Assembly (NCBI GenBank): GCA_002701385.1
Contig: NZVD01000085.1
Location: forward strand, 78,047 to 115,025
Length of the DNA: 36,979 bases
Direction: 5' to 3'
Source: Rhodopirellula sp.
GTDB lineage: Bacteria > Planctomycetota > Planctomycetia > Pirellulales > Pirellulaceae
In this document: positions 7,302-27,973 of the stretch, piece after piece
Position numbering within the stretch: position 1 is the stretch's first letter
Layout: every line of letters begins with the position of its first letter
The notes under the pieces: generated by a model
The model's database searches: none
What the model was told of the DNA's origin: nothing
Seen by the model: only the letters and a program-made list of their open reading frames with translations
Made by a program: the position numbers and the translations under genes

Positions 7302-7348
7302 GTTAAAAGAACAAATACTCGCATGTTAAATAAAAGACAAGGAATCAG

Positions 7349-7762
7349 TTGAACAAGTTTTCAAACAACCAGCCGGAACCCTCTAACTGGGAAGAACAAT
7401 TGGAACTGTTACAGGGCTATACATTAGAATTGCAATCCCTCGCTCGGGAAATGGTGACATTACTGCGAGCGCATAATGAGAGCAACTGGGAACAGGTCTA
7501 TTCAAACTTTGCTCAAGCAATCGGTAACTCCAAATCCAACCGGCAACGCCTGAAGGCTATCGATTACATTCATTCAATCTATGGTGGAATGGGAAGCTGG
7601 AACGATTTCTATCTTCTCGCTTTGGGAGAGGCGGAAAAACAACGCATGTCATTAGGAATTGCTATTTACAATTTGGCTAAAAAAACGAAAACTCAGATTC
7701 TCACCGGTCCCGAGGAGCCCAAAAGAAGTCTTTGGGAAAAATTAAAAGGGAAATTATCCTGA
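7349..7762 (+). CDS. Hypothetical cytosolic protein, alpha-helical
   Basis: The 137-residue product starts at TTG 7349; AAGGA sits 5-6 nt upstream and the next Met is at residue 38, so the TTG start is preferred. It has no signal peptide or membrane segment. It is predicted helical, with LAREMVTLLRAHNESNW, then NRQRLKAIDYIHSIYGGMGSWNDFYLL. The GGMGSWND(F/L) block is reminiscent of DUF6966-like small proteins, some of which occur with toxin immunity genes, but I cannot confirm this. It probably forms a unit with the small membrane protein at 7796. Confidence 0.5.
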   Translation: MNKFSNNQPEPSNWEEQLELLQGYTLELQSLAREMVTLLRAHNESNWEQVYSNFAQAIGNSKSNRQRLKAIDYIHSIYGGMGSWNDFYLLALGEAEKQRMSLGIAIYNLAKKTKTQILTGPEEPKRSLWEKLKGKLS

Positions 7763-7795
7763 GCGTTCTTTAAGGGAAGTATAGAAGGCATAGAA

Positions 7796-7999
7796 ATGCA
7801 AAAATACAGTCGGCTTCTAATTTCATTCATCTCTCTGATGATCAGTTTTTTTTCCCTGTTTGGATTTTTGGCAACATTCGAGCCTGTCAGTAATGCTATA
7901 GCCTTTCGGGCTTTTTATTCAATTCTAGGAATCACCACAGTTACTATTAGTATTCGAATGATGTACTTAGCTATTCGTAATCCTCCCTTAGTGGAATAA
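7796..7999 (+). CDS. Small two-helix membrane protein
   Basis: The 67-residue product has two predicted transmembrane helices (about 6-28 and 38-58) and a short charged tail. It is 33 nt after the gene at 7349, with AGAAGG upstream of the ATG. No family is recognised. It converges with the glycerophosphodiesterase gene, with the two stops 2 nt apart. Confidence 0.5.
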   Translation: MQKYSRLLISFISLMISFFSLFGFLATFEPVSNAIAFRAFYSILGITTVTISIRMMYLAIRNPPLVE

Positions 8000-23306: not shown

Positions 23307-23738
23307 TTGACTGACAAATCAAAAAAACAGAAGAATCCTTTTTATACTTTGCTCATCTGGGTAGGAATTGTGTTCGCCATCACTGCGACGTCCTACGGTG
23401 TCATGACCGTCACTCATCTCAAAGCTTCGGAAGAAATAACCGAATCGAGTGATCCCACAGAGACGTTTCATCCTCTTTTCAGATTTCTGGATGAAAATGG
23501 ATTTGATCTCATGCTTGCCGAGCTTGGTTTGTTGGGCGTTCTGACGTTTGCTGCAATTGCCTATGATGAAGTGCATGAGATACCAAATAAACCATCGTCA
23601 GGACAGGCAGCAGAAGAGGTCGAAGGCCGGGTGTCTACTGATCAGGATGATGGAGAAGTAGACGCAACGGATGCTGACGGAGACTCCGCAACGGCATCGG
23701 TGTCGACTGACCAACTACATCAGTCTTCGGATGCTTGA
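23307..23738 (+). CDS. Small membrane protein upstream of ligA
   Basis: The 143-residue product starts at TTG 23307 with a weak GGA upstream; there is no better in-frame start. It has two membrane helices (about 13-35 and 66-87), with an extracytoplasmic-length loop between them and a polar acidic C-terminal tail of about 50 residues (DQDDGEVDATDADGDSA). No family is recognised. Its stop lies 14 nt before the ligA start, so the two are probably co-transcribed. It is divergent from uvrA across a 228-nt gap in which I found no LexA-like palindrome. Confidence 0.5.
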   Translation: MTDKSKKQKNPFYTLLIWVGIVFAITATSYGVMTVTHLKASEEITESSDPTETFHPLFRFLDENGFDLMLAELGLLGVLTFAAIAYDEVHEIPNKPSSGQAAEEVEGRVSTDQDDGEVDATDADGDSATASVSTDQLHQSSDA

Positions 23739-23752
23739 GGGAGGTCAGGCCG

Positions 23753-25774
23753 TTGAGTAAACGTACGCAACAACAGATCGAGCAACTGCGAAGTGACCTG
23801 TTACGGCACAATAAACTCTATTACATCGATGCTCAGCCTGAGATTACTGACCTCGAATATGACCAGTTACTGAAAGAACTTCATCGTTTAGAGCAACTGT
23901 ATCCGGAATATGATTCGCCGGAGAGTCCAACTAAACGAGTCGGAGAGCAGCCGGTTGATCACTTGGTTACCGTGGATCACCGTCTGCCCATGTTGTCGAT
24001 TGATAATACTTATAATCTCGACGAACTAAGAAAATTTGGTCAACGTACCAAGGATGCATTCGACGGTAGAGAGTCAGAATGGGCTGTTGAATTGAAAATC
24101 GATGGCGTCGCGGCTTCTGTTATCTATGAAAACGGCGTGTTGGTTCGTGCACTGACTCGAGGCAATGGAGTGCAGGGAGACGATATCACTCATAACATTC
24201 GTACGATTGCCGATGTTCCTTTGCGGTTGTTATCGGATAATCCGCCGGATGTTTTGGAGGTGCGTGGTGAAGTCTATATGACTAACCATGATTTGGCTCA
24301 GATTAATGAACGTCAAATCAGCCGTGGAGACGCGTCATTTAAGAATACCCGTAACGCGACGGCCGGAAGTATCCGCCAGTTGGATCCTCGTATTTGTGCG
24401 GAACGACGTCTGAGAATGTTTTGCCATGGCATTGGGTATTGTGAAGGGATTCATAGCGAAACCCATATGCAGTTTCTCGATGAGATACGGAGCTACGGAC
24501 TACCCGCCTCGCCGTTTGTTGATAGTTTTGATTCCTTTGAAGCCGCGATTGCTCACTGCGAATTCCTGACTCAGGAAGTGCAGGATATCGATTTTGAAGT
24601 GGATGGGATTGTTCTCAAACTAAATCAATTCAATCAACGCGACGCACTTGGAAACACCGCGAAAAGCCCTCGTTGGATTGTGGCCTACAAGTGGGAACGT
24701 TATGAGGCGATTACGCGACTCAACAACATTACGGTTCAGGTTGGTAAAACCGGCGCGATTACTCCGGTCGCTGAACTGGAGCCTGTGGAATTGGCAGGGA
24801 CGACTGTGAGTCGGTCGAGCTTACATAATGCGGATGAAATCGAGCGTAAAGACATACGGGTTGGTGATGTCGTTGTGGTCGAAAAGGCCGGCAAGATTAT
24901 TCCACGGGTCGTCCGTGTTGAAAAACATGAACGGAAAAGTAACCTACCTAAATTTCCATTCCCCACCCACTGCCCGGAGTGTGACTCGGCACTGGTGAAG
25001 GATGAAGGCGGCGTTTATATTCGCTGCCCGAATTACCTTTGTCCGGCTCAATTGAGGGAACGTCTGCGTTTTTATGCAACACGTAATGCGATGGATATCG
25101 AAGGGTTAGGAGACAAGCTAGTGGAACAACTCGTGGAAGCAGAGTTGGTCTCCGGATACGCCGATCTTTATCGATTGTCGTCTGACCAGGTGGCTGAATT
25201 AGAACGTATGGGAGATAAGTCGTCTAAAAACGTGGTGATCAACATTCAGGCAAGTAAGACTCGGGGGCTGGCTAAAGTCTTAAATGCGTTATCGATTCGA
25301 CACGTTGGGGCTCAGGTCGCTGCGACGATTGCCAAACACTTCGGCTCGCTCGACGCCATCCGCAAGGCAACACTTGAAGAGCTGAGTGAAATCAATGAGA
25401 TCGGTGAAGTAATTGCCGCAAGTCTGCATCGATTTGTCCATCAGTCCCCCGGAAGCGACATTCTGCAAGAACTAGAGAATGCCGGAGTGGTTATGACTGA
25501 AGCAATGGCAGAGGAAGAACAAATCAGTGATGTGTTCGCTGGCAAAACCTTTGTGGTGACCGGGACCCTTACGGATTTCACTCGAGATCAAATTCATGAA
25601 TTGATCGTTCAGCATGGTGGTAAAACGAGTAGTAGTGTATCGGGGAAAACCGATTACCTAGTCTCGGGGGAAAAAGCCGGAAGCAAATTGGCTAAAGCAC
25701 AGGATCTCGGAGTCGAGATCTTAAGCGAAGCTGATTTTCAACGGTTGATCGCGCCGGGCAATCTGTTGTTTTGA
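23753..25774 (+). CDS. ligA: NAD-dependent DNA ligase LigA
   Basis: The 673-residue product seals nicks in replication and repair using NAD. I choose TTG 23753, since GGGAGG (23739-23744) lies 8 nt upstream; an earlier TTG at 23735 overlaps the preceding gene. Domains in order: Ia (YYxxxxP.I.D.EYD), adenylation domain with nucleophile Lys115 in LKIDGVA and EVRGEVYM, OB fold (VGKTGAITPVAEL), four-Cys zinc finger (CPECDSA...CPNYLCPAQ), helix-hairpin-helix repeats (about 470-570), and a BRCT domain (about 595-665, GKTFVVTGTL). Length is normal for the family and all key motifs are present. Confidence 0.96.
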   Translation: MSKRTQQQIEQLRSDLLRHNKLYYIDAQPEITDLEYDQLLKELHRLEQLYPEYDSPESPTKRVGEQPVDHLVTVDHRLPMLSIDNTYNLDELRKFGQRTKDAFDGRESEWAVELKIDGVAASVIYENGVLVRALTRGNGVQGDDITHNIRTIADVPLRLLSDNPPDVLEVRGEVYMTNHDLAQINERQISRGDASFKNTRNATAGSIRQLDPRICAERRLRMFCHGIGYCEGIHSETHMQFLDEIRSYGLPASPFVDSFDSFEAAIAHCEFLTQEVQDIDFEVDGIVLKLNQFNQRDALGNTAKSPRWIVAYKWERYEAITRLNNITVQVGKTGAITPVAELEPVELAGTTVSRSSLHNADEIERKDIRVGDVVVVEKAGKIIPRVVRVEKHERKSNLPKFPFPTHCPECDSALVKDEGGVYIRCPNYLCPAQLRERLRFYATRNAMDIEGLGDKLVEQLVEAELVSGYADLYRLSSDQVAELERMGDKSSKNVVINIQASKTRGLAKVLNALSIRHVGAQVAATIAKHFGSLDAIRKATLEELSEINEIGEVIAASLHRFVHQSPGSDILQELENAGVVMTEAMAEEEQISDVFAGKTFVVTGTLTDFTRDQIHELIVQHGGKTSSSVSGKTDYLVSGEKAGSKLAKAQDLGVEILSEADFQRLIAPGNLLF

Positions 25775-25828: not shown

Positions 25829-25867
25829 AAAAAAACATCCCTTTGACATATGTTGCCAAAGGGATGT
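25829..25867 (-). terminator. Rho-independent terminator of the selenoperoxiredoxin gene
   Basis: A perfect 11-bp stem (ACATCCCTTTG at 25835-25845 with its complement at 25857-25867). On the minus strand it is followed by seven T. It lies about 30 nt after the full-length stop at 25898, not after the internal TGA, which supports one full-length gene. Confidence 0.9.
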
Positions 25868-25897: not shown

Positions 25898-26497
25898 TTA
25901 TTTTTGCTTAACTCCAAGCTCCTTTAGTTTTTTCACCAGATCCGTGCCATGAGTCTTGGCACTTACTTCTTTGTCGACATAAAGCACTTTTCCATCAGTT
26001 CCTATAATGTAGGTCCAACGGAAAGGAACAGGTCGCTCATCGTTGACGACTCCGTAGGCTCGCGCCGTATCTTTCTTAGGGTCACTCAGGATAGGGTAAT
26101 CCAACTGAAGTGACTCGGCATATCGTTTGTTAGTGTCGGCAGTATCACAACTGGCGGTAAAGAATGCGACATTAAATTTGTCGAGTCCTGAACCTTTTTC
26201 TCGGGCCGAAACTGAAAACTTACGGTCGCCCAAAAGCTTAATAGAGAAGCCTTCTTTAACTCCGCTGGCACGCAGCGAATCACATTGAGCGGTTCAGCCT
26301 CCGGTAAATGCTTTAGGGAACCAAGCCACAATGACCACTTTCCCTTGATAATCCGATAACTTATGGACTTTGCCGTCGCTACCTTGAAGTGCAAAGTCTG
26401 GGGCTTGGTCACCCGTTTTGACTTCGGCATGGAGAGGAGCAACAATCAAAGTCAGCAGGGCAAGAAGCCCACAGATCTTCGTTAAAGATCGCTTCAT
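25898..26497 (-). CDS. Exported peroxiredoxin, probable selenoprotein (in-frame TGA = Sec68)
   Basis: This is one gene of 199 residues if the TGA at 26294-26296 is read as selenocysteine; standard calling gives two pieces (25898-26233 and 26294-26497) in the same frame. It has a signal peptide (1-24, PLHA|E), then an AhpC/TSA-Bcp thioredoxin fold: KTGDQAPDFALQGSDGK, VVIVAWFPKAFTGG, then U68-TAQC72, SLR, ASCDTADTNKRYAE, YPILSDPKKDTARAYGV, RWTYIIGTDGKVLYVD. In this family the residue after F-T-(P/G)-G is the peroxidatic Cys, and the TGA falls exactly there; Cys72 would be the resolving thiol. No other stop or frameshift occurs, and the terminator lies past the full-length stop. It would reduce H2O2 or organic peroxides in the periplasm. 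The alternative is a nonsense mutation in a fresh pseudogene. No sel genes are in the window. Confidence 0.85.
26261..26279 (-). promoter_or_regulatory. Candidate bacterial SECIS element
   Basis: On the minus-strand mRNA, nucleotides 15-33 after the UGA fold as UUCGCUG-CGUGC-CAGCGGA: a 7-bp stem with one U-G pair and a 5-nt apical loop. The loop begins 22 nt after the UGA and has G at its second position. Bacterial SECIS elements are known to lie within the coding region just after the UGA, with a short loop carrying a G in its first two positions at roughly this distance. The fold was made by eye, without an energy calculation. Confidence 0.65.
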
Positions 26498-26629: not shown

Positions 26630-27973
26630 ATGAAAAATTATCACTTGCCTTGGTTATTGTGTTTGACCTGGGTCTGCCTTCTCCCCGTTGAATCACAAGG
26701 GCAGAACTGGCATCAATTCCGAGGTCCAGGATCGCGTGGTGTCAGTGCCAATGATGCCTTGCCATTAAAGTGGGACTATGGGAAACGCACGAATATCGAG
26801 TGGGAGGTCGAGACGCAGGGACGAGGCTGGTCGTCGCCGATTGTTACCAATGGAAAAATCTACTATTCCACCGTTGTGAACGAAGGGGCTACGGAGGCGG
26901 CTAAAAAAGGACTCTACTTCGGTGGCAATCGAGCCGCGCCTCCTAAAGGCGTACACCACTGGCTTATCATCTGCCGTGACTTAACGACCGGTAAATTGGA
27001 ATGGAAAAAGGAGGTGCATCACGGAATCCCCAGTGGATCGATTCATGTAAAAAACAGTTTTGCTTCCGAGACGGCGGTGACAGATGGAGAGAATCTGTAT
27101 GTCTCCTTTGGCCATTTAGGAATCTTCTGTGTGGATCTCAAAGGGGAACTCATTTGGCAGCGACGTGGAAAAGCATCAAAGACCCGCTATGACTGGGGCA
27201 CAGCGGCTTCGCCCGTCCTTTATAAGGACAAGCTTTTTATTGTCGACGACAATGAAGAACAATCGACGTTGCTGGCATTGGATAAGGCCACAGGAAAAGA
27301 ACTTTGGCGAGCGAAGCGTCCGGAAGGCAGCAATTGGGCGACTCCTTTCGTTTGGGAGAATTCACAACGGACAGAACTTGTCACACCAGGTACCGGTATG
27401 AACCGAGTTTACAGTCTGGAGGGAGAGTTACTTTACGAATTTGGTGGCAATTCCAGTATCACCATTGCGACGCCGTATGCGAAGGATGACTTGCTATACG
27501 TTAGTAGTGGTTATGTGCTGGATCCCAAAAAACCGTTGTTTGCCATCAGGCCGGGGGCCAGCGGAGATATTACACTTGGCGATAAAGAAACCAGTAATGA
27601 TTTCATTCAGTGGTGCCAAAAGGAGGCTGCTCCATACAACCCGTCGACCTTACTGTACGAAGGAAGAATCTATGTTCTGTACGACCGGGGATTCTTTGCC
27701 TGTTTTGATGCCAAGACCGGTCGGGAAATATACGGCAAACAGCGTCTCAATGGTGGCCGAGCCTTCACCAGTTCGCCTTGGGCCTATCGCGGGCATATTT
27801 TTTGCATAAATGAGTATGGCGAGACGTTTGTTATTAAAGCAGGAGATACGTTTGAGGTGACAGGAAAGTACGCCTTGCACGTGGAGGATATGGCGATGGC
27901 CACACCTTCCATGGTGGGGGACCGTCTGATCATCCGTACCGCAGAACGCTTGTACAGTATTCGAGAAAAGTAA
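26630..27973 (+). CDS. Secreted PQQ-like beta-propeller protein
   Basis: The 447-residue product has a signal peptide (about 1-24, SQGQ|NW). The mature protein opens with WHQFRGPGSRGVS, the planctomycete quinoprotein-like entry motif, and is built of propeller blades: CRDLTTGKLEWKKEV, CVDLKGELIWQRRG, ALDKATGKELWRAKRPEG, ACFDAKTGREIYGKQ, YSIRE. Trp/Gly-rich blade ends recur about every 45-50 residues. As with BamB-like proteins, the repeats alone do not prove PQQ binding; no dehydrogenase active-site set is evident. Its start is ATG 26630 with a weak SD. It is divergent from the peroxiredoxin gene, 132 nt apart, so the two share a promoter region. Confidence 0.87.
   Translation: MKNYHLPWLLCLTWVCLLPVESQGQNWHQFRGPGSRGVSANDALPLKWDYGKRTNIEWEVETQGRGWSSPIVTNGKIYYSTVVNEGATEAAKKGLYFGGNRAAPPKGVHHWLIICRDLTTGKLEWKKEVHHGIPSGSIHVKNSFASETAVTDGENLYVSFGHLGIFCVDLKGELIWQRRGKASKTRYDWGTAASPVLYKDKLFIVDDNEEQSTLLALDKATGKELWRAKRPEGSNWATPFVWENSQRTELVTPGTGMNRVYSLEGELLYEFGGNSSITIATPYAKDDLLYVSSGYVLDPKKPLFAIRPGASGDITLGDKETSNDFIQWCQKEAAPYNPSTLLYEGRIYVLYDRGFFACFDAKTGREIYGKQRLNGGRAFTSSPWAYRGHIFCINEYGETFVIKAGDTFEVTGKYALHVEDMAMATPSMVGDRLIIRTAERLYSIREK

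Follow-up and report, generated by a model that had tools for sequence, protein, structure and literature searches.

A Rhodopirellula peroxiredoxin gene with an in-frame TGA at the peroxidatic position, a likely exported selenoprotein

The window analysed here, a stretch of 36,979 nucleotides from a Rhodopirellula genome, carries on its minus strand a gene that very probably encodes a signal-peptide-bearing, Bcp-like selenocysteine (Sec) peroxiredoxin. The protein would belong to a Bcp/AhpE-like branch, with Sec68 as the peroxidatic residue and Cys72 probably as the resolving one. A preliminary description of the sequence had proposed a likely exported selenoprotein, and our results support this reading. 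The frame is broken by a single TGA at a conserved codon, a hairpin is associated with this TGA across homologs, the region past it is under purifying selection, and the genome has a tRNA-Sec and selD, with selA and selB found in the genus. The features of the locus are as follows.

25898..26497, minus strand: probable Sec-peroxiredoxin gene, 199 codons plus TAA with an in-frame TGA (translation, Pfam, orthologs)
26426..26497, minus strand: signal-peptide-like N-terminus, residues 1-24 (by eye; the hydrophobic N-termini are alike in 30 homologs)
26294..26296, minus strand: TGA, codon 68, at the peroxidatic-Cys position, PKAFTGG-U-TAQC (sequence and homolog alignment)
26282..26284, minus strand: codon of Cys72, a possible resolving Cys (Cys in 162/162 distinct homologs)
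26261..26279, minus strand: SECIS-like hairpin, 7-bp stem with loop CGUGC; core of 5 bp, 26277-26273 with 26267-26263
26198..26266, minus strand: insertion of ~23 residues (78-100) past the active-site helix, modelled as two strands (in 11/28 aligned homologs)
25829..25866, minus strand: terminator-like hairpin and T run, 3' of the gene (read from the sequence)
23735..25774, plus strand: NAD-dependent DNA ligase (ligA), convergent neighbour (in the same 5 same-genus genomes as the next feature and in some other genera)
26630..27970, plus strand: PQQ_2-type propeller protein, divergent neighbour (adjoins the gene in 5 same-genus genomes)

Translated from 26497 to 25898, the minus-strand frame begins MKRSLTKICGLLALLTLIVAPLHAEVKTG and runs through to the TAA, the TGA at codon 68 being its sole internal stop in the window. 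Its N-terminus, MKRSLTKICGLLALLTLIVAPLHAE, resembles a signal peptide as judged by eye. With the TGA read as a residue, the protein matches the Pfam families AhpC-TSA (97.9 bits, cut-off 26) and Redoxin (67 bits, cut-off 26.6). Translation, Pfam and the presence of the same TGA in orthologs thus confirm the initial proposal of one peroxiredoxin frame broken only by a TGA at the peroxidatic Cys. Gene-calling software would split this gene in two at the TGA. In the mechanical list of open reading frames of 100 aa or more, the gene is represented by its 3' piece alone (25898-26233, 111 aa), beside an overlapping frame (26086-26445). The terminator noted downstream in the preliminary description can be seen in the sequence as a 10-bp stem (25866-25857 with 25845-25836), a loop of 11 and then seven T; a consensus terminator scanner that considers loops of 3-8 only does not list it, its loop being 11. 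A promoter scan stayed near chance (2 found vs 1.2 in shuffles). The divergent propeller-protein neighbour is also present, and it is of the PQQ_2 type. All five same-genus relatives keep the genes that surround the locus, ligA and the propeller gene among them. Outside the genus, we looked for the propeller gene beside the peroxiredoxin and did not find it, while ligA is there in some. We also scanned the window for frames containing exactly one TGA. There were 11, and 3 of these do not largely overlap a long ORF; the peroxiredoxin frame is absent among those listed. In the one frame translated, at 7334-7999 (plus strand), 142 codons are followed by a TGA and 78 open codons. We rejected it as a selenoprotein: its translation bears no mark of one and the TGA is probably an ordinary stop.

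The TGA codon is conserved among relatives. Our first homolog search covered 60 genomes, including the genome of the window. Five of the 8 other genomes of the genus (G001, G002, G004, G005, and G008) have a full-length ortholog, 82-84% identical, and all five have the same TGA. The search for an ortholog gave no match in G003 and G007, and a weak match to another peroxiredoxin in G006. Full-length homologs from other genera (58-65% identity) have the TGA in 5 of 6 cases, the sixth (G015) having TGT. Sampling was widened in two ways, by a search of 396 genomes across the order and by a scan of named genomes. The best 80 of 418 relatives were kept, and the share of TGA among homologs is therefore not an unbiased rate; with one exception, the titles of the 80 named records mark them as metagenome-assembled genomes. 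Three truncated matches were left out (G063, G379, and the second of G085), and the figures cover the matches listed. We read 211 loci and merged those with identical protein sequence between a point 30 residues ahead of the codon and the C-terminus, which left 162 distinct sequences. The preliminary description had proposed to ask whether the codon is TGA or TGC/TGT in relatives; codon 68 is TGA, TGC, or TGT in 162/162 of the distinct sequences (90, 56, and 16, respectively) and never another. The TGA forms occur in Planctomycetota, Verrucomicrobiota, and Acidobacteriota, the phyla being those given in the record titles. On the homolog tree, which is weak in places (38/159 inner branches starred), the distribution of codons calls for at least 16 switches between TGA and Cys.

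A second line of evidence comes from a hairpin, ATTCGCTGCGTGCCAGCGGAG, that starts 14 bases 3' of the TGA and has a 7-bp stem and a loop of 5. Its five core pairs form at one register in 84/90 TGA genes vs 4/72 Cys genes, no TGA gene having been dropped from this count for want of a hairpin. When synonymous codons were resampled from the same genes, the mean was 5.3 hairpins per 90 genes, with a maximum of 15 in 1000 draws. The inner stem pair is C-G in 51, G-C in 28, and T-A in 6 of the 90 TGA genes. The Arg codon of the loop is CGT in 84/86 TGA genes vs 6/34 Cys genes among those having Arg there. The remaining six TGA genes fold as shifted or altered hairpins, and two of them (L151 and L231) are also without the GTG of the loop. 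Given the TGA set, RNAalifold predicted the hairpin unprompted (-4.28 kcal/mol); given the Cys set, it did not. Among 7 independent, supported pairs with contrasting codon states, the hairpin tracks the TGA in a mean of 6.9 (median p 0.016, range 0.016-0.125). Folded on its own, the 40-nt stretch of the window gene is uninformative: it does no better than shuffles (z -0.43) and its lowest-energy fold is a different one. As a feature predicted from sequence, the conserved hairpin, which had been overlooked in the preliminary description, adds independent support for the Sec reading.

Purifying selection acts on the region 3' of the TGA. When the window gene is compared with the five orthologs of its genus, this region has a dN of 0.09-0.11; against a homolog from another family (L103, see below) the value is 0.12. 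Since dS past the TGA is saturated in most pairs, or at least 1.8, several dN/dS values are not computable. The three ratios that are computable range from 0.025 to 0.051. Hence, the decay after the TGA that the preliminary description had named as evidence to the contrary was not seen.

The function of the protein is best approached from its fold and active site. An AlphaFold model, with Sec entered as Cys, shows a confident peroxiredoxin fold (mean pLDDT 92.7, pTM 0.85), whose top Foldseek matches are Bcp, BcpB, and AhpE. Residue 68 and Cys72 share one helix (66-75) in this model. The spacing between them is U-x3-C. The peroxidatic and resolving Cys of PrxQ are spaced C-x4-C, such that Cys72 stands one residue nearer than the PrxQ resolving Cys. 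Although the protein is a peroxiredoxin, it exceeds no NCBIfam cut-off. The best model is the Bcp thiol peroxidase (NF006960, 69.3 of 140 bits), and the matches to PrxU (NF040737, 39.8 of 270 bits) and ResA (37.8 of 170 bits) are weaker. The U-x3-C spacing unlike that of PrxQ, the peroxidase models below cut-off, and the weak ResA match would fit a Sec protein acting as an exported thiol-disulfide oxidoreductase or redox sensor rather than as a peroxidase. We consider such a role unlikely, because P61, T65, and R160 are invariant in 28/28 aligned rows and, among the 50 fold matches listed, nearly all are peroxiredoxins of the Bcp, AhpE, AhpC, and Prx1 types. Moreover, the PxxxTxxU motif is complete in the window protein (PKAFTGGU), and it is described as a peroxide-binding motif in the available part of PMC13188914. 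For the Sec-peroxiredoxin that we favour, the following mechanism can be proposed. SelB would bind to the hairpin that closely follows the UGA and deliver Sec-tRNA-Sec, and the UGA would be decoded as Sec to give the full 199-residue protein. The signal peptide would direct this protein across the cytoplasmic membrane. The selenolate of Sec68 would attack a peroxide, its presumed substrate, and the oxidised selenium would be resolved, probably by Cys72, into a selenenylsulfide that a periplasmic thioredoxin-like partner may reduce.

Decoding of the UGA as Sec depends on machinery that the preliminary description had proposed to look for across the genome. Part of it is there: a tRNA-Sec, which ARAGORN also finds, lies on contig C42 (65.8 bits against a gathering score of 47) and selD on contig C23 (355.5 bits, cut-off 125). 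The other part is missing, as no selA or selB match in a profile search of the assembly reaches its cut-off, with the qualification that the place expected for them falls in a contig gap and that both genes are found in five same-genus genomes. The SelB-like matches of the genome were rejected since their sequences read, by eye, as EF-Tu, CysN, IF2, TypA, LepA, and EF-G, and the best SelA-like match was rejected as a shorter SelA-like protein on reading its sequence. More broadly, selB is over cut-off in 20/26 relatives and selA in 22/27 genomes, the genome of the window included. In genomes with the TGA form selB is found in 37/40, vs 21/63 of those with the Cys form (Fisher p 9.5e-10, kinship ignored). 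This tally was made by hand; it leaves out G322, G353, and G364 (TGA), and G408 was taken to be the same as G200 and counted once because their selB matches are identical.

A few other loci of the genome deserve mention. The selD gene itself (L011:1399-2451) has one in-frame TGA, in CAGUAGK, with a hairpin predicted after it, and SelD is probably a selenoprotein too. Contig C36, outside the window, encodes a SelA-like protein of ~400 aa (L009; 46.9 of 267.9 bits to selA), and similar matches are found in G001, G002, G005, G006, and G008. The 10-kb contig C51 carries a second CysD/CysN-like pair (L004), rich in Lys, Asn, and Ile, the other pair being on C18 (L002); C51 is perhaps a contaminant.

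Gene order in the genus bears on the missing selA and selB. The genes selB, selA, one more gene, and guaB are consecutive in G001, G002, G003, G005, and G006, and a short contig of G007 has the same order with its ends cut. The conserved order observed in G005 (L078) and in the same-genus loci L079-L082 is a surE-like gene, guaA, an ABC protein, and further on selB, selA, one gene, and guaB. In the genome of the window, the tRNA-Sec lies near surE and guaA on contig C42, which begins at the gene that precedes selB elsewhere. Contig C66 ends within the second gene after guaB. The stretch missing between the two contig ends is about 8 kb in G005. We searched guaB as a family, with controls, in 8 genomes: it is over cut-off in 5 and missing from the genome of the window (G000), G004, and G008. 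These are also the three in which the TGA gene occurs without selB. In G008, the gene behind the selB-selA-guaB block was not found either. Because the flanks of the block end at contig ends and the neighbouring guaB is also missing, the absence of selA and selB is most likely an assembly or binning gap.

If selA and selB were instead truly lost in the lineage, the gene would be a recent relic or would yield only a truncated product. That the three genomes without selA and selB (G000, G004, and G008) all have the TGA form, at completeness values of 99%, 69%, and 91%, respectively, speaks for such a loss, and it is odd that three related assemblies should share this gap. However, in G000 each flank of the block runs into a contig end, guaB has gone from the same three genomes whereas guaA is kept in G000, the tRNA-Sec and selD are retained, and the window gene shows no decay 3' of the TGA. 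From this synteny we judge a true loss to be very unlikely.

Simpler accounts of the TGA fare worse. A nonsense mutation, a pseudogene, or a sequencing error at this one codon would also give a frame that a gene caller splits, but it is highly improbable given the TGA shared by 5/5 same-genus orthologs and 90/162 distinct homologs, the purifying selection past it, and the hairpin linked to it, and we reject it. Reassignment of UGA to an ordinary amino acid, without selenium, would equally leave the frame open and can be dismissed, since TGA still ends 6 of the 24 window ORFs taken as genes, the genome has a tRNA-Sec, homologs without the TGA have only Cys at codon 68, and the hairpin accompanies the TGA.

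Several known systems resemble the Sec-peroxiredoxin proposed here. Bcp/PrxQ give the best NCBIfam (NF006960) and PDB (3drn, 5epf) matches. The window protein differs from them by its score below the cut-off, its export signal, its Sec-x3-Cys instead of the C-x4-C of PrxQ, and an identity of 23-26% to the Bcp structures listed. Mycobacterium tuberculosis AhpE (PDB 4x1u, 1xvw) is among the closest folds listed (TMt 0.73-0.83), but it is 25-26% identical, is a 1-Cys peroxiredoxin by PDB title, and is without Sec. PrxU is also a peroxiredoxin, of which the window protein is not a member by its NF040737 score; we take the name to be that of the Sec enzyme of Eubacterium acidaminophilum. The latter enzyme is cited in the accessible part of PMC13188914. 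Finally, peroxiredoxins with TxxU are an established selenoprotein family, listed as such in PMC1794560, PMC2398784, PMC9312934, and PMC13188914; the Prx (TxxU) family corresponds to PF00578 / COG1225 Bcp, and PMC1794560 counts 5 Cys-to-Sec events in it. The window protein is like this family in its AhpC-TSA domain, its TxxU with Sec at the peroxidatic position, and its PxxxTxxU. Since TxxU peroxiredoxins are already established selenoproteins, the window gene is a further member and not a new family. It is set apart by the descriptions, in that a signal peptide, U-x3-C, and planctomycetes were not found for the Prx (TxxU) family in the available portions of these four papers. What is less ordinary in the group of the window gene is the export signal, the U-x3-C, the spread over three phyla, and the at least 16 Sec/Cys changes. 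The export signal, the spacing, and the repeated changes over three phyla are absent from the same portions and may be described elsewhere. From ocean metagenomes, 253 TxxU Prx sequences are reported, which may include relatives of the window protein. Planctomycete selenoproteins are reported in the accessible part of PMC4807772, and the candidate table S9 of that paper may list the window protein.

More tentatively, these genes could form an exported Sec-peroxiredoxin subfamily over three phyla, with its own reductant outside the cytoplasm, that switches between Sec and Cys and leaves decaying hairpins behind; we regard this wider picture as possible, at somewhat less than even chances. Annotation easily misses selenoproteins, since it takes UGA for a stop, and it would give such an exported subfamily, from bacteria that are mostly uncultured, as fragments. 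Close Sec and Cys versions, whose hairpin appears and disappears together with the codon, offer natural pairs to study selenium retention and could address why a lineage keeps or drops selenium at the active site of an extracytoplasmic enzyme. One such case is the homolog L103 (L103:2908-3528, genome G408, another family), which shares ~81% identity with the window gene and has TGT where that gene has TGA. Its stem is broken by one synonymous base change, a ligA-like fragment adjoins it, and the genome has selB. It looks like either a gene transfer followed by a Sec-to-Cys change or a contamination of the metagenome bin, and it has the look of a Sec-to-Cys switch caught in the act. In addition, the five stem pairs still form in four Cys-form homologs (L043, L179, L033, and L260). 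Among these, L043 (TGT) retains both the stem and the CGTG loop; such a hairpin would be expected of a former Sec gene and resembles a fossil SECIS.
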